Assembly (NCBI GenBank): GCA_030747075.1
Contig: JASLLL010000048.1
Coordinates: 1-12,014, forward strand
Length of the DNA: 12,014 bases
Direction: 5' to 3'
Origin: Gemmatimonadota bacterium
GTDB lineage: Bacteria; ARS69
Made by a program: the position numbers and the translations under genes. A model generated the notes under the pieces. The model saw nothing but the letters and a program-made list of their open reading frames with translations, was not told the origin of the DNA and made no database searches. Below, one piece after another: positions 1-6,602 of this stretch. Numbering within the stretch: the first letter of the stretch is position 1; every line of letters starts with the position of its first letter.

Positions 1-9
1 CGAACCCCC

Positions 10-91
10 AAAAAAAAGGAGCCCCGTCGGAACATCAGCCAAACCGTCCCCCTCGGTTGACCAATCAGAACCGGTTGACAGGGCTCCACAC
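10..91 (-). ncRNA. Candidate sigma54-dependent small RNA or attenuated leader
   Basis: With the sigma54 C at -12 placed at 103, transcription should start at about 91 (a G). The transcript then enters a 7-bp GC-rich stem after four bases: GGAGCCC (87 to 81) pairs with GGGCTCC (24 to 18). After a 1x1 mismatch the stem continues for three pairs (77-79 with 26-28). The 3' arm is followed directly by eight T (17 to 10), as at intrinsic terminators. Inside is a 5-bp hairpin, AACCG (58-54) with CGGTT (46-42), and loop AGGGGGA, a purine-rich loop that could base-pair with a target. Predicted length is about 82 nt. The outer stem closes a loop of roughly 50 nt, which is long for a simple terminator. 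The alternative is the leader of a protein gene starting at 35 or beyond the left edge. No homology to a named RNA is claimed. Confidence 0.45.
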
Positions 92-101
92 GCATCATCC
101 A

Positions 102-118
102 AGCAGAATGCGTGCCAG
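102..118 (-). promoter_or_regulatory. Sigma54 (-24/-12) promoter reading leftward
   Basis: On the minus strand the sequence reads CTGGCACG (118 to 111), CATT, CTGCT (106 to 102). The sigma54 consensus is YTGGCACG-N4-TTGCW. The -24 block matches fully, the GG and GC pairs have the correct spacing, and only the first T of the -12 block is C. The predicted start is at about 91. The promoter points away from the regulator gene. That regulator has an intact GAFTGA loop for contacting sigma54, so it is the obvious candidate activator. The plus strand also has a small inverted repeat, gtgcc/ggcac (112-125), overlapping the -24 element. Confidence 0.65.
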
Positions 119-131
119 TCGGCACCCCGAC

Positions 132-148
132 CCGTGAATAAGTCATAA
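132..148. promoter_or_regulatory. Degenerate third copy of the dyad operator
   Basis: This plus-strand stretch reads CCGTGA, five bases, TCATAA. It keeps one full half-site and the first three bases of the second half-site of the dyads at 227-262, with the same 17-bp layout. It lies just upstream of the sigma54 -24 element (centre about 49 bp before the predicted start), closer than usual for a sigma54 enhancer. It may be a low-affinity or chance site. Confidence 0.3.
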
Positions 149-226: not shown

Positions 227-262
227 GCGTGACTTTTTCACGGACCCGTGACTTTCTCACGG
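227..262. promoter_or_regulatory. Tandem 17-bp dyads, probable enhancer sites
   Basis: Two inverted repeats of the form (C/G)CGTGA-N5-TCACGG occupy 227-243 and 246-262, with centres 19 bp apart. The second is perfect over six base pairs on each side and extends to eight (244-251 with 257-264). The first has one mismatch at the outermost pair. A 6+5+6 dyad is the layout of classical NtrC binding sites, although the bases differ. The centres lie about 144 and 163 bp upstream of the start predicted for the sigma54 promoter. The dyads also follow the regulator's stop codon and could form RNA hairpins with loops GAAAG and AAAAG. Neither is followed by a T run on the minus strand, so an operator reading is preferred to a terminator. 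Confidence 0.5.
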
Positions 263-269
263 GTTTCGA

Positions 270-1655
270 TCACCCCAGCCCGTGCTTCCGGCAGAGATAG
301 CGAATCTGGTTGTCGTCCAGGCCCAGGGCGCGACCAGCGGAGGATTTGTTCCCCGCCGAAGCCGCGAGCGCATCCACGAGGATTGCCCGCTCAAAGGCGG
401 TGATGCGCTCCTTGAGCGGCAGCCCCTCGCTGGAATCCGCAACGATCCCCTCCCGGGCCGCGTCATTCTCCTCCGGGGGGATCATGAGATCGCCCGGATC
501 AAGGTCCTCCCCGTCCAGAAGCACCAGCGAGCTCTCCAGGACATGCTGGAGCTGGCGAATGTTCCCCGGCCACGAGAACTCCAGAAGGCGCTTCAGCGCG
601 GCGACCGAAAGCCGGGGCGGGCGACGCCCCATCTCCTCGGAGAGCGTGTCGAGGAAGTGCTCGGCAAGGGAGGCGATATCCCCCCGACGATCCCGAAGCG
701 GCGGCAGATCCACGGTGGCCACCTGCAGGCGGAACAGGAGGTCCTGGCGGAAGCTCCCCTCAAGGACCAGGTCCTCCAGACTCCGGTTGGTCGCTGCAAT
801 CAGCCGCACATCCGCGCAGATCTCCTCCGAGGAGCCCACCGGGCTGTAGGTTCGGTTGTCGAGAAACAGCAGCAGCTTCGCCTGAGCCGCGGCGTTCAGA
901 TTGCCGATCTCGTCGAGAAACAGCGTGCCCCCGTCCGCCTTGCGGATACGCCCCTCCCGGCGGACATCGGCCCCGGTGAACGCGCCACGAACATGCCCGA
1001 ACATCTCGCTCTCCATCAGCGACTCCGGAATCGCCGCGCCGTCGACCACCACAAAGGGACCGTCGGCGCGGCTCCCTTCCTCGTGAAGAACCCGCGCGAT
1101 GGACGACTTCCCCACGCCGCTCTCTCCCAGAAGGAGGACGGTCGTGGGAACTCCGGCGAGTTTCTGCAGCCGGGCGAACATCTTCTGTGCAGCGGGACTC
1201 TGCCCGATGAGGCTTCCAAAGGAATGGCGACGGCGAACCGTTCTGCGGAGGTCGCGAAGTTCACTCTCCAGCCGCGCCCGTTCCAGCGCACGCACCACGA
1301 CAATGCGCAGCACATCCGGATCCAGCGGTTTCAGGAGGAAATCGGTGGCCCCCTGCCGGACCATTTCCAGCGCGACATTCCGGTCCCGATCCCCCGTGGC
1401 GATCACCACCGGAACCCACGGGCGCCGCGCACGCACCTCTTTCAGCGTCCGCACACCGCCGTCCGCGGTGTCGGGGTCGGGCGGAAGGTGCAGATCGAGA
1501 ATCACAAGATCCACCGCCTCCCGCTCCACGACATCCAGCGCGCCAGCGCCGTCCTCCGCCTCCAGCACGCGATAATCCGCCTTCAGCAGGTGGTAGAGCA
1601 GCCGCCGCTCGGTGGCTTCATCATCCACCAGAAGAATGGTCGCGGGCTCTGCCAT
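270..1655 (-). CDS. Sigma54-dependent response regulator, PrsR/NtrC-like
   Basis: This 461-residue protein is a DNA-binding activator of sigma54 RNA polymerase controlled by phosphorylation. The receiver domain (about 6-125) has acidic residues D11/D12, phosphoacceptor D54, T87 and K109. The AAA+ domain (about 148-380) has Walker A GESGVGKS (177-184), the sigma54-contact loop GAFTGA (224-229) and Walker B GTLFLDE (243-249). A Fis-type helix-turn-helix fills the last 45 residues. After D54 the receiver carries the longer loop [11 protein letters not shown] instead of a short MPGMDG-type loop. From memory this is typical of PrsR, the regulator of PEP-CTERM/exosortase exopolysaccharide systems. 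The ATG has an AAGGGG ribosome site 8 bases upstream and starts 4 bases after the preceding stop. The likely partner is the NtrY-like kinase of the same operon. The likely target is the sigma54 promoter just beyond its own stop. All key residues are present. The family is near certain; the PrsR affiliation is an inference. Confidence 0.95.
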
Positions 1656-1659
1656 GCCG

Positions 1660-1908
1660 TCAGCCCCTTTCCGCGCCCGGGTCGGACGCGCCCTCGCCCG
1701 GCGTCTTCAGGCGCACCGCCATCTCCTCCACCTGGCGAACCAGATCCGCCAGCATGGAGAGGGCTTCGGCCCGAAACTCCGGATCGTCGGGACTCTCGCG
1801 CAGGTTGTACAGGAGGAGATTCAGTTGCGAAGCGAGATTGTTCAGGTCGTGGACCGTCCGCCCCCGCTCCGAAGCGGTCGGTTCCTCCGGCCCGGGATGC
1901 GCCGTCAC
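1660..1908 (-). CDS. DHp-only histidine phosphotransfer-like small protein
   Basis: This 82-residue soluble protein starts at GTG; its start overlaps the kinase stop in a GTGA, with AGGGG 7 bases upstream. After a short polar leader it reads RTVHDLNNLASQLNLLLYNL, then a turn and a second amphipathic helix (about 46-70). This is the two-helix DHp hairpin of histidine kinases, with candidate phosphoacceptor H20. D21 and N24 fit the E/DxxN motif used in phosphatase reactions. From memory the helix resembles the HDLKNL segment of PrsK, the kinase partner of PrsR. There is no ATP-binding (CA) domain: N, G1, F and G2 boxes are all absent. Neighbours on both sides are coupled to it, a full kinase upstream and a response regulator downstream. 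It could be phosphorylated in trans by the kinase, pass phosphate to the regulator, remove it, or compete with the kinase DHp. It may also be a remnant of a lost PrsK-type kinase. Confidence 0.8.
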   Translation of the reverse strand: MTAHPGPEEPTASERGRTVHDLNNLASQLNLLLYNLRESPDDPEFRAEALSMLADLVRQVEEMAVRLKTPGEGASDPGAERG

Positions 1909-4900
1909 GACTCTTCCCCTTCCGCCGGATCATCCCCGCGCGCCAGCGGGAAGTGCAGCTCCACGAGCGTTCCCCTTCCGAGTTCCGAGGTGATCTCGAT
2001 CGAGCCGTCGTAGTCTTCCATGATCGCGCGGCAGATCGGCAGACCAAGCCCCGCGCCGCCCGTCTTCGTGGAGAAGCTCGGCTCGAAGATGCGCTCCAGA
2101 TTCGGCGCGGGAATCCCCTGCCCGGTGTCGCCGATTCGGGCGACGGCCCAGTCTCCCTCGACCTTTCCTGCAATCTCCAGCCGCCCCCCGTCGGGCATGG
2201 CCTGCACAGCGTTCTCCAGCAGGTTGATGAAGAGGCGCATCACCTCGTCGCGGTCGATGCGCACCGGCATCTCGTCTTTCTGCAGATCCATGCGAAGCTC
2301 GATGCCCCGTCCCGCCTCGCCGCAAAGACGCCCCGCGTCTCCCAGCAGGCTGCCCAGGTCCTCTCGCAGGATTCGGCGTCCCGGCATTCGGGCGTAGTCC
2401 GAGAACTCCACCGCGATCCTCCGCAGCGCCTCGCACCGGTCGATGATGGTCTCTGCGGACTCCTCCAGTATCCGATCGAACTTCGGGTGCCGGTCCCGCC
2501 AGGCCTCGCGCAACTGCTGCGCCGAGAGCTTCATGGGCGTCAGCGGGTTCTTGATCTCGTGGGCCACCTGCCGGGCCATTTCCGCCCAGGCCGTGATCTT
2601 CTTCGACCGGATCAGTTCCGTCAGATCCTCAAAGACCACCACCGCGCCCTGCGGGACACCGCTTCGATCGGAGAGCGGCGTTCCCAGCAGTCGGATCGTC
2701 CGGTCTTCCCCGCCCGCCACGCCGGGCAGGTCGATTTCGCGGACGATCTCCCCGGCATTCTGTCCGAAGAGAGGGACCGCCTCGGCCAGCACCACTCCCG
2801 ACTTTCCCGCATCTCCCGGCCGCAAGCCGATCAGATCGCCCGGATCCACGCCCAGAATCCGAGCGGCAGCTTCGTTGACGGTCGCCACCCGGCCCGAGCG
2901 GTCGAAGCTCACCACTCCGGACCCCACATGCCGAATGATCGCCTCGATGTACTCCCGGCGTTCTCGATCGCGCGCTTCGGAAGTGGCCAGCCTGCGGCTC
3001 ATTGCGTTGAACGAATCGATCAGCCGACCGATCTCTCCGCCCGCTCTCGTCGCGATTCGATGCCCCAGTTCCCCGCCACCGACGCGTTCCGCGCCCGCCG
3101 TCAGCGCGGCTATCGGACGGGTCAGCCGACCGGCCAGCAGCACGGCCGCGAGGATCGCCGCAGCGAGCACAAAGAGGCAGAGAAAGTAGATGCCGGAAAG
3201 CACTCGCGTGGCCCCCGGATCCAGCCCGGCCCCCGGAAAAGGACTGAGCGCGACGATCATCCCTGCCGGCTGGTTGGTCTCATCCGGGAGCGGGCCGCAG
3301 CTCTCCAGAAAGGCCCCCGCACCCACACGCCTCTCGACCAGTGTCGTTCGCGCGCCTTCCAGTTCGATCGCGACGAAAGCGGGGGCGTCCACCAGATCGC
3401 TCAGGATCTCGGACTGGTAAAGCCCCGGCCGGGATGTCGCCGCCAGACGACCTCCGGCAAAGAAACTGAGCGGCGAACCGACCCGTCGCTCCAACTCCGA
3501 AACCAGCGTGTCATCCACACGCCGAAACGCCAGCACGGCCCCGGTTCGTGGCACGCCCGCGGGGTCCGAAGGTGCCAGCGGGATCGAGGCGCACGCAAAG
3601 AGCTGTGTGCCCTCCCGGCGAAAATAGCCCGGGTAGGTCGCGCCCGGCGCGCCGCCCACCGGCAGCAGGGGAACCCCGGCTTCTCCGCCGGGACTCAGAG
3701 CCACCACGCGTCCGTCGGCATCCACGACCACCAGCGCGTCCGCGGACGCCGGAGAGGGAATCTCCACCGGCTCCGGCCCGCCCCCCGGTTCCTCCACCAG
3801 CCGCCGCACCTCCTCGGAGCGCGCGGCATTCCGGGCGGCATCCGAGAGACGCCGAGAGAGAATCTCCCGTGCGACGCGCAAGTTGCCTTCCAGCACGGAG
3901 CGAAACTCCTTGCGCCGCTCCTGCACGAACAGCTCCCGCCCCGCGAATCCCAGGAGCACGGTCGGCAGGAGGGACACCAGGAGGAACCCGGCGATCACCC
4001 GCTCGCGGAAGCCCGGCCGGGGAATGTCCATCCACGGAATCCGGTTCGGGGCGACCCACGATCCGAGCATCGCCACGAGAACCAGCACCGCCGCCAGCAC
4101 GAGGGTCGCCAGAACGACCCGCGCGAGAAGATAGGCTCCCGACACCACCCCCGCGCGACGCAACCCGTACGCCAGATACCCCACGGTACGATGGCCATCG
4201 TGCTCCCGAACGCAGTAGACATCGTACAGCGCTCCCCCGATCCGGCGCTCCACCCAGCGCCCGCCTGCACCGGGGTCGTTCAGCGCTTCGGCAATCACCG
4301 ACGGCACACGATTCCCAAGCCCGCCCTCCGGGTCGGTGGACGCCACGAGAACATCGCCCCGGTAGCGATCGATTCGATCGGGCACCTGACGGGCGAAGCG
4401 CAGGAAATCCTCTCCGGCCGGAATGCTCCCGAAGACGCGTGCCAGCCGACGCCCGGACTCCTCTTCCGGCCGGAGATCGTCGTGGAACGCCAGCTGCACT
4501 TCGACCGAACCGCGAACCGCCTCCCCGTCCAGCACGGGGATCTCTCCGAAATAGAGGTCCACGCGGGCACCCTCGACTTCCGTTCGACGGAATCGACGCC
4601 TCTCCTCCCCCCCGGTCATTCCCGAGCCGGTCCCTGCCGCCAGCTCTTCGGGAAAGTCGAGGCGGAACGCGCTGAACGCACTCCCCGATGCATCCCGAAT
4701 CCGAACGGAGCAGCCCGCGCCCGCCCTCGGAAGAGGACTCCCGGCCCAGAGCATGAAGGCCAGGTTGCCCTCTTCAAACCGGGACTCCCCGTCCAGCGCG
4801 TCACGCAGAAGCCCGGACGACGCAAACTGCTCCAGCGCGCCCTCCAGCAGGAAGTGCCTCGTGGGGGACGGGCTCTCGGTGCCCTCCAGCGCGCGAAGTT

Positions 4901-6602
4901 CCACGAGTTCCCGTCGGCGATGCTCCACGCCTTCGCGAAGTGGAAGGAAGTTCGCCAATGCGGCCAGCACCGAAACCGCCAGGACCGATCCCGTGCCGGG
5001 CCGTTTCCAGCGCCTCCCAACCAGATGAAAGGCCGCCAGCACGACCAGCGCCGGAACGGGGCGCGCGAAGTCTCCCGCGGCAACCCGATCCGGAACGCCC
5101 ATCTTCACCGCCGACGCCAGGAGCGCGGGAACCGCCAGCGCGATGACCCGGATTCGCGGAGGAATGGAGGACAGCAGCCCGGAGGCCGCAGTCAGCAGGA
5201 TATCGCCCGCCATGAGGAACGCCGCGCCGCCGAGGAGCAGCCCCAGCTCCAGCGCAGCGACCGGAGGGGCGGCGAAAGGATCCAGTCCCTCGAAGAGGGA
5301 GGCGTTCGCGTTCCGGGTGATGTCCAGCACGCGAGTCCAGTGAAACCCGACCAGCGACCCCACGAATCCCGCCGCCGCAAGGCCCGGCAGACCGAGGAGG
5401 AAGGGGTGCGCGCGGGACGCGGAGGCGAGGCGGTCCTCCCGGGCAAGGAGGCGGCCCCGCACTTCACGCACGCTCAGGAACACGGCGGCCGCCGTGAGCA
5501 CGAGATCCCCCGGAGAGCGAAGGAGCCCCCAGTAGCGGATGGACGCAAACCACCCGGGGTCGAATATGCCCGTCGGGTCCGCACGAGATGCGGAGGCGGT
5601 CCAGGTGAGGAGCGCCACCCGTGTGCCGGCCAGCAACGCCAACCGGGCGGCCATTCCCGGAAGCCCGGAGAACACGGATGTGGGCCTGCCGGGCGTGAAG
5701 CAGATCCAAAGGCGCATCGCCGCAAGGAGAAGCAGCGCGCCGAAGACCCAGGTCCGAAGAGAGCGTGCCCCGCCGAAGGTGTCCGCCGCCAGCGCCGCCT
5801 TGCGGAGTCCCGCCAGCGTGACGCGCCCGACCGGAGCCCCTCCTTCGCGCACAATGTCCACCACCGCCGACGCCGACTCCTCCCCCACATTCGCCCGGAG
5901 CTTGCCAGGCTGAATGTCGCGAATCCGCGCGGCTCCGTCCGCCTCCACAGAGAGCGACACTTCCGCGTGCGTCCCCCCCGGCCCCTCCAGATCACGAAGC
6001 GCGTCTTCGGTCCGCAGGTAACGATTGCTCAGCGGGAACAGCACGCGGAGCGGCTTCTGAAAGACGACATAGCCACGCGGGCCGTCCTCTCCCGGAATGG
6101 GGCGGATCGCCTCCAGCAGCGTGTAAATGTGTCCCGGGCGAATGCGCACCACGGCGCGGGAAGAGGGCGGGCGGGCGGGAAGCGTGGTCGTCGCCGTGGG
6201 AGCCCAGCCCGACCAGGCGCGGGGGTGGCCGGTCGCATCGTAGACGGTCACGCCTTCGCGACCGCGACGCACCGGTAGCTGGCGCTCCAGATCGAGGAAC
6301 ACCGGCCTCCGGGCGGTTCTCTCCAGCTCCTCCCGCGCCGAGAGCAGCGCGTGCGTGTCCGGATCTTCGCCGACATCCCGGATTCGCAGGAGGGCCGCCT
6401 CGCCCGCTTCGCGCAAAAGCCCCACGATCCGATCCGCGGACACGGTGAGTTCCGCTTCGGCCCGCTCCTCCCAGGAAGCGCGGAATGCCGCCTCCCGCGT
6501 GAAGAGACTCGCCTGCAGGATGACCGCCAGCAGGCCCACGGCCACCAGCGGCAGATCCAGCGGGAACGGGTGGCGGCGGGAACGGGGTTCAGGCGGCGTC
6601 AT
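1905..6602 (-). CDS. Giant NtrY-like membrane sensor histidine kinase
   Basis: This 1565-residue protein is about twice the usual NtrY length. Predicted order: membrane segment 16-36; an extracytoplasmic region to about 282; roughly eight membrane segments between 283 and 555; a second extracytoplasmic region to about 820; membrane segments near 821-845 and 863-885; a third sensor region to about 1133; membrane segment 1134-1158; HAMP (about 1158-1210); PAS (about 1217-1325); DHp with RQVAHEIKNPLTPMKL and phosphoacceptor H1348; and an ATPase domain with N box NLLENAVQAMPDGG, G1 DTGQGIP, F box FEPSFSTK and G2 GGAGLGLP. From about 850 onward it follows NtrY architecture; the first 840 residues are an added membrane module of unknown ligand. 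All catalytic boxes are intact, so it should autophosphorylate and signal to the sigma54 regulator two genes on. No clear Shine-Dalgarno precedes the ATG, which starts 16 bases after the previous stop, so translation may depend on the upstream gene. The reading frame is unbroken. Confidence 0.93.
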   Translation of the reverse strand: MTPPEPRSRRHPFPLDLPLVAVGLLAVILQASLFTREAAFRASWEERAEAELTVSADRIVGLLREAGEAALLRIRDVGEDPDTHALLSAREELERTARRPVFLDLERQLPVRRGREGVTVYDATGHPRAWSGWAPTATTTLPARPPSSRAVVRIRPGHIYTLLEAIRPIPGEDGPRGYVVFQKPLRVLFPLSNRYLRTEDALRDLEGPGGTHAEVSLSVEADGAARIRDIQPGKLRANVGEESASAVVDIVREGGAPVGRVTLAGLRKAALAADTFGGARSLRTWVFGALLLLAAMRLWICFTPGRPTSVFSGLPGMAARLALLAGTRVALLTWTASASRADPTGIFDPGWFASIRYWGLLRSPGDLVLTAAAVFLSVREVRGRLLAREDRLASASRAHPFLLGLPGLAAAGFVGSLVGFHWTRVLDITRNANASLFEGLDPFAAPPVAALELGLLLGGAAFLMAGDILLTAASGLLSSIPPRIRVIALAVPALLASAVKMGVPDRVAAGDFARPVPALVVLAAFHLVGRRWKRPGTGSVLAVSVLAALANFLPLREGVEHRRRELVELRALEGTESPSPTRHFLLEGALEQFASSGLLRDALDGESRFEEGNLAFMLWAGSPLPRAGAGCSVRIRDASGSAFSAFRLDFPEELAAGTGSGMTGGEERRRFRRTEVEGARVDLYFGEIPVLDGEAVRGSVEVQLAFHDDLRPEEESGRRLARVFGSIPAGEDFLRFARQVPDRIDRYRGDVLVASTDPEGGLGNRVPSVIAEALNDPGAGGRWVERRIGGALYDVYCVREHDGHRTVGYLAYGLRRAGVVSGAYLLARVVLATLVLAAVLVLVAMLGSWVAPNRIPWMDIPRPGFRERVIAGFLLVSLLPTVLLGFAGRELFVQERRKEFRSVLEGNLRVAREILSRRLSDAARNAARSEEVRRLVEEPGGGPEPVEIPSPASADALVVVDADGRVVALSPGGEAGVPLLPVGGAPGATYPGYFRREGTQLFACASIPLAPSDPAGVPRTGAVLAFRRVDDTLVSELERRVGSPLSFFAGGRLAATSRPGLYQSEILSDLVDAPAFVAIELEGARTTLVERRVGAGAFLESCGPLPDETNQPAGMIVALSPFPGAGLDPGATRVLSGIYFLCLFVLAAAILAAVLLAGRLTRPIAALTAGAERVGGGELGHRIATRAGGEIGRLIDSFNAMSRRLATSEARDRERREYIEAIIRHVGSGVVSFDRSGRVATVNEAAARILGVDPGDLIGLRPGDAGKSGVVLAEAVPLFGQNAGEIVREIDLPGVAGGEDRTIRLLGTPLSDRSGVPQGAVVVFEDLTELIRSKKITAWAEMARQVAHEIKNPLTPMKLSAQQLREAWRDRHPKFDRILEESAETIIDRCEALRRIAVEFSDYARMPGRRILREDLGSLLGDAGRLCGEAGRGIELRMDLQKDEMPVRIDRDEVMRLFINLLENAVQAMPDGGRLEIAGKVEGDWAVARIGDTGQGIPAPNLERIFEPSFSTKTGGAGLGLPICRAIMEDYDGSIEITSELGRGTLVELHFPLARGDDPAEGEES

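Follow-up and report, generated by a model that had tools for sequence, protein, structure and literature searches.

A candidate sigma54-driven small RNA gene beside its probable NtrC-family activator in a Gemmatimonadota bacterium

What does a sigma54 promoter transcribe when it lies behind the gene of its probable activator, close to the edge of a contig? The locus described here, from a Gemmatimonadota bacterium, raises this question, since the promoter is followed by a hairpin and a run of eight U, and an earlier note had proposed that it drives a small RNA. Our preferred reading is that the product of the promoter is a free small RNA of ~82 nt, to which we give a probability of about 0.6.

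Genomic setting

The window, i.e., the whole stretch of DNA that was analysed, is an entire contig of 12,014 bases, and base 1 therefore marks where the assembly broke off rather than the boundary of a gene. The host genome has 2.67 Mb and 65% G+C, and is rated 100% complete. The elements discussed below are all on the minus strand, in the order regulator gene (end at 270), palindromes, promoter, predicted start (91), and U8 tract (17-10), and the contig stops 9 nt past the latter. Extending the contig leftward, as the earlier note had suggested, did not succeed: among all contig tips (those of contigs 59-61 consist of N), none overlaps the left tip of the window by at least 10 bases.

The two-component system

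Three genes of the window encode the signalling proteins:

270..1655, minus strand: NtrC-family response regulator of 461 aa, likely activator (receiver, sigma54 AAA+ domain, Fis-type HTH)
1660..1908, minus strand: protein of 82 aa with a phosphoacceptor-type HDLNN helix, PrsK-like, without ATPase domain
1905..6602, minus strand: membrane sensor histidine kinase of 1565 aa, likely partner kinase (HAMP, PAS, HisKA, HATPase)

The gene next to the promoter had been read as a sigma54 activator, and we indeed found the receiver, the AAA+ domain with its GAFTGA motif, and the Fis-type HTH. The best-scoring NCBIfam model for this regulator is that of PrsR (TIGR02915), at 379 bits, which is below the cut-off of 502.6 and falls short of a PrsR assignment. 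The LuxO model (NF041946) requires 800 bits and gives 307, far from a LuxO identity.

The kinase has a very long N-terminal part. Its orthologues in four sister genera are 51-57% identical, none of them has the regulator behind it, and in two of these loci the kinase gene visibly stands behind secF and a DUF4783-like gene. The gene of the 82-aa protein lies ahead of the regulator and shares its first bases with the last ones of the kinase gene. Its product matches positions 483-534 of the PrsK model (TIGR02916) with an E-value of 1.4e-7, below the cut-off, and is possibly a phosphotransfer or phosphatase part of the system. In the sister genera, no such peptide was found ahead of those regulators that were sampled.

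Promoter and probable activator-binding sites

Between the regulator gene and the contig edge, we identified one promoter and up to three candidate sites for its likely activator:

102..118, minus strand: sigma54 -24/-12 promoter CTGGCACGCATTCTGCT (from sequence, and from an orthologous promoter in the genome G202 with matching spacing to the palindromes)
247..261, minus strand: probable activator-binding palindrome CGTGAGAAAGTCACG, first enhancer site (perfect copy of the motif in G202)
228..242, minus strand: probable activator-binding palindrome CGTGAAAAAGTCACG, second enhancer site (from sequence and the comparison with G202)
133..147, minus strand: possible degenerate third site TATGACTTATTCACG adjoining the promoter (weak, from position; absent in G202)

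The promoter already recognised at 102-118, CTGGCACGCATTCTGCT, has its GG and GC dinucleotides 10 nt apart and is one base off the consensus TTGC. The genome also encodes rpoN (447 bits; cut-off, 277), so that the two elements expected of a sigma54-dependent small RNA gene, a -24/-12 promoter and the sigma factor itself, are both there. No sigma70-like promoter was found in positions 1-400 of the window. However, the motif TGGCAYRNNNNYTGCW has 8 matches genome-wide against 6 for the reversed control, i.e., it is not enriched, and is therefore little proof by itself. The weight of the promoter argument lies in its place behind the regulator gene and in the flanking palindromes, not in the motif.

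These palindromes had been missed in the earlier note. The perfect form CGTGA-N5-TCACG has three copies in the 2.67-Mb genome, of which two are found here (261-247 and 242-228), 19 bp apart; near the third, on contig 45, no sigma54-like promoter is visible. Among ~800 genomes searched, a single one, G202, has a close orthologue of the regulator (62% identity), and it belongs to another phylum. The C-terminal HTH is nearly the same in the two proteins over the 16-residue stretch compared. Behind the orthologous gene, G202 has the palindrome twice, once perfect and once degraded, and then a sigma54 promoter, at distances of 143 and 123 nt, versus 144 and 125 nt here, while the remaining spacer sequence between sites and promoter differs. 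The promoter of the window hence has predicted enhancer sites upstream, at a distance conserved in the orthologue. The palindromes are likelier to be DNA-binding sites than RNA structure, since the second copy in G202 forms no hairpin.

Taken at the level of sequence, it is well supported that the adjacent regulator would drive the promoter at 102-118, and the tie between the two that had been drawn from their adjacency is now anchored in paired sites. The comparison with G202 supports the view that activator, sites, and promoter belong together as a predicted unit. The regulators found in the sister genera are 35-44% identical to this one, have different HTHs, and lack such palindromes. The regulator and its sites look like a horizontally acquired cassette.

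Hairpin and probable terminator

The stretch downstream of the predicted start contains the elements of a short transcription unit:

10..91, minus strand: candidate small RNA of 82 nt, with predicted start at 91 and end in U8 (from the fold; no homologue found)
77..87, minus strand: 5' arm of the closing stem, GGAGCCCTGTC (sequence and fold)
18..28, minus strand: 3' arm of the closing stem, GACGGGGCTCC (sequence and fold)
10..17, minus strand: U8 tract of the intrinsic terminator (count of T runs)

The closing stem (GGAGCCCUGUC/GACGGGGCUCC) has 11 continuous pairs, including one G-U, and is longer than first described, with a 3' arm at 18-28 that lies flush against U8. Its first base lies 4 nt downstream of the predicted start at 91, and together with the U tract at 17-10 this gives an 82-nt span on which sequence and fold agree, as the earlier note had it. 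The minimum free energy of the 82-nt stretch is -34.6 kcal/mol (z of -2.86 relative to shuffles, 3 of 200 of which fold as well), and the predicted structure is one long hairpin with internal loops and a G-rich apical loop (AGGGGGA).

Background counts of T runs and stems were made over 1.12 Mb of the genome, taken in stretches of which a few overlap slightly. An 11-pair stem at exactly such a span occurs at 3e-5 of the positions. Both strands together hold two runs of at least 8 T, and the one outside the window stands behind a perfect terminator hairpin. Five runs reach at least 7 T; that of the window and three others follow hairpins. The rarity of T8, together with a stem flush against it, makes the terminator reading strong; the end of the transcript at U8, like any target, is inferred.

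One may ask whether a terminator-like hairpin and a promoter-like motif have merely come to stand side by side without forming one unit, or whether the tip of the contig is an assembly error. The counts of the promoter motif would allow the former, and the latter finds some ground in the fact that several contig tips of this assembly are homopolymer-rich. However, the distance between enhancers and promoter that is conserved in G202 and the statistics of stem and U8 speak against chance, and we regard this explanation as very improbable.

Possible protein genes behind the promoter

The orthologous locus of G202 gives a mixed answer to the earlier reading: activator, sites, and promoter are kept, but the output of the promoter there is a protein operon. 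More precisely, 32 nt past the promoter lies a gene for a stand-alone receiver of 128 aa, 47% identical to the receiver domain of the window's own regulator, followed by a giant secreted protein with an open frame of ~2650 aa (locus L268, contig C158 of G202, minus strand). As a separate observation, the window's genome has the C-terminal ~90 residues of this giant protein again in many of its contigs, in the manner of a sorting domain. In the sister genera and in the window's genome, several regulator genes have a sigma54-like promoter within the next 135-250 nt and then a gene whose start resembles a signal peptide. Readings in which the promoter serves a protein gene, either directly or through a leader, therefore fit the habit of the phylum.

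The first of these readings is an attenuated leader, in which most transcripts stop at U8 and some read through into a protein operon past the contig end. The cassette of G202 and the protein genes of the sister genera are in line with it, as is the end of the contig immediately after U8. However, no alternative fold of the anti-terminator kind was seen, none of the other sigma54-type sites listed is followed by a T-rich hairpin, and at the readable contig ends (the tips of contigs 59-61 being N) nothing came closer to the G202 receiver than family-level similarity. We thus hold a leader to be unlikely, though it has to be kept in mind when the locus is interpreted.

The second would have the promoter drive a secreted-protein gene, whose start would be placed as follows:

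1..35, minus strand: putative beginning of a protein gene, MFRRGSFFLGV..., truncated at the contig edge (sequence, codon score)

Under this reading the hairpin and T8, which would encode Phe-Phe-Leu, are incidental. The peptide resembles the start of a signal peptide, and its frame is open to the contig edge. Its ATG at 35 would leave a 56-nt leader, within the range of those of the neighbours, and an AGGGGG stretch is similar to a ribosome-binding site. Among real 10-codon windows its codon score ranks at the 31st percentile, an ordinary value that does not discriminate. Yet the spacing of the ribosome site is long (~12 nt), the site would lie inside the hairpin loop, T8 is extremely rare here, and an 11-pair stem flush against T8 is improbable by chance. 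The earlier statement that no convincing protein gene fits is only partly right: stem and T8 speak for it, but it has to be softened for a frame with a signal-peptide-like start and an ordinary codon score; we judge such a gene quite improbable. Returning to the small RNA, the promoter, the hairpin, and U8 on which its proposal was built all stand, and strand, ends, and logic had been read plausibly there, but the free RNA itself is likely rather than established, in view of the missing RNA homologue, the protein operon in G202, and the contig edge.

Searches for homologues and targets

A covariance search, as the earlier note had in mind, recovered no RNA homologue: a single-sequence covariance model found none in a 5-genome set of the phylum (including the four sister genera) and in selected loci. 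BLASTN with positions 1-130 of the window against 60 genomes returned its own match, the rest being chance-level pieces of ~15-35 nt, and plasmids and phages gave no meaningful match. With Rfam, at E-values up to 10, nothing above threshold was obtained for the candidate. A hit to the C/D-box snoRNA sR23 (window 33-100, minus strand; 21.9 bits versus 45) was judged to be due to chance and rejected, as the model is without pairs, large insertions are needed, and the match begins upstream of the predicted start. The RNA is an orphan with respect to the collections searched, with no homologue and hence no covariation for its predicted stem.

Where the RNA was paired with the window's genes around their starts, the duplex energies were no better than those of shuffles (z from -1.4 to +1.0). 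No match to Hfq was found in this genome rated as complete, so that the RNA would act by Hfq-independent pairing or through a protein that it binds.

Comparison with known systems

The plan of a sigma54 activator beside the gene of its own sRNA is already known from Myxococcus, Pseudomonas, E. coli, and Vibrio, and the present case would be a further instance of it, without recognised sequence relation. In Myxococcus, the gene pxr has a sigma54 promoter of its own and follows nla19/pxrR, which encodes a sigma54 response regulator; Pxr is not made without pxrR, and the kinase pxrK contributes to its synthesis (PMC5568312, PMC10217877). The system of Myxococcus xanthus, Pxr with PxrK/PxrR (Nla19/SpdR), shares with the locus studied here a kinase, a sigma54 regulator, and a short intergenic region with a sigma54 promoter, followed by an sRNA (~108 nt for Pxr, a candidate here). 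However, Pxr folds into three stem-loops and a short form arises from it by processing, whereas the candidate is one long hairpin. The candidate has no Rfam match above threshold, and the likeness is one of layout.

In Pseudomonas, crcZ is located behind cbrAB, and its RNA is longer than the 82-nt candidate. CrcZ titrates Hfq through A-rich motifs, whereas Hfq was not found in the window's genome. The RpoN promoter of crcZ is activated by the NtrC-type regulator CbrB (PMC4063720). In Enterobacterales, QseF drives glmY, a gene adjoining qseEGF (PMC7073468, PMC8745638). Here as there, a sigma54-dependent sRNA gene, here a candidate, adjoins its own two-component system (QseE/QseF, or GlrK/GlrR, for GlmY), but glmY precedes the genes of the system and acts with RapZ and GlmZ, whereas the candidate is downstream and has no Rfam match.

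The Qrr RNAs of Vibrio reportedly act with Hfq (Lenz et al. 2004, cited in PMC10162802). The candidate is not a Qrr RNA, since it has no Rfam Qrr match, Hfq was not found, and the regulator is far below the LuxO cut-off; the earlier remark that its sequence is unrelated to Qrr agrees with this. The likeness to luxO-qrr1 pointed out at the time is valid in that LuxO, of NtrC type, drives the sigma54 sRNA qrr1 (PMC10162802), but pxrK-pxrR-pxr and cbrAB-crcZ are closer parallels.

Proposed mechanism and its implications

We propose that the 1565-aa kinase probably phosphorylates the 461-aa regulator, which would then bind the paired CGTGA-N5-TCACG sites just past its own gene and activate sigma54 RNA polymerase at 118-102, ~125-144 nt downstream of these sites. 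Transcription would start near 91 and stop in U8 at 17-10, and the free ~82-nt RNA, a single long hairpin closed by the terminator stem, would accumulate. Its apical AGGGGGA loop and internal loops are possible contact sites, and the RNA would most likely be an Hfq-independent regulator, acting by base pairing or protein binding.

If the RNA is real, an uncultured lineage without an Hfq match would add a further occurrence of the plan, at a great distance from Vibrio, Myxococcus, Pseudomonas, and the enterics, which would suggest that it arises readily. One activator-promoter unit would then have an RNA as output in one lineage and a protein in the other. A bolder and rather doubtful proposal is that activator, paired sites, and promoter form a mobile cassette common to the two phyla, whose output was exchanged: a giant secreted protein with a receiver on one side, an orphan Hfq-independent sRNA on the other. 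Were this the case, promoter capture in an uncultured lineage would have given a two-component system its RNA output.

Other regulators and promoters in the phylum

The layout of a regulator gene next to its target is repeated in the phylum for NtrC-type regulators (loci L053, L041, L050, L037, and L047). In the window's genome, two near-identical sigma54-type promoters, TGGCACGGATTCTGC, were found around position 1501 of loci L107 and L108 (contigs 29 and 41). They share upstream GGAACC/GGTTCC palindromes and resemble the regulon of another activator; L107 also contains a run of more than 15 G.
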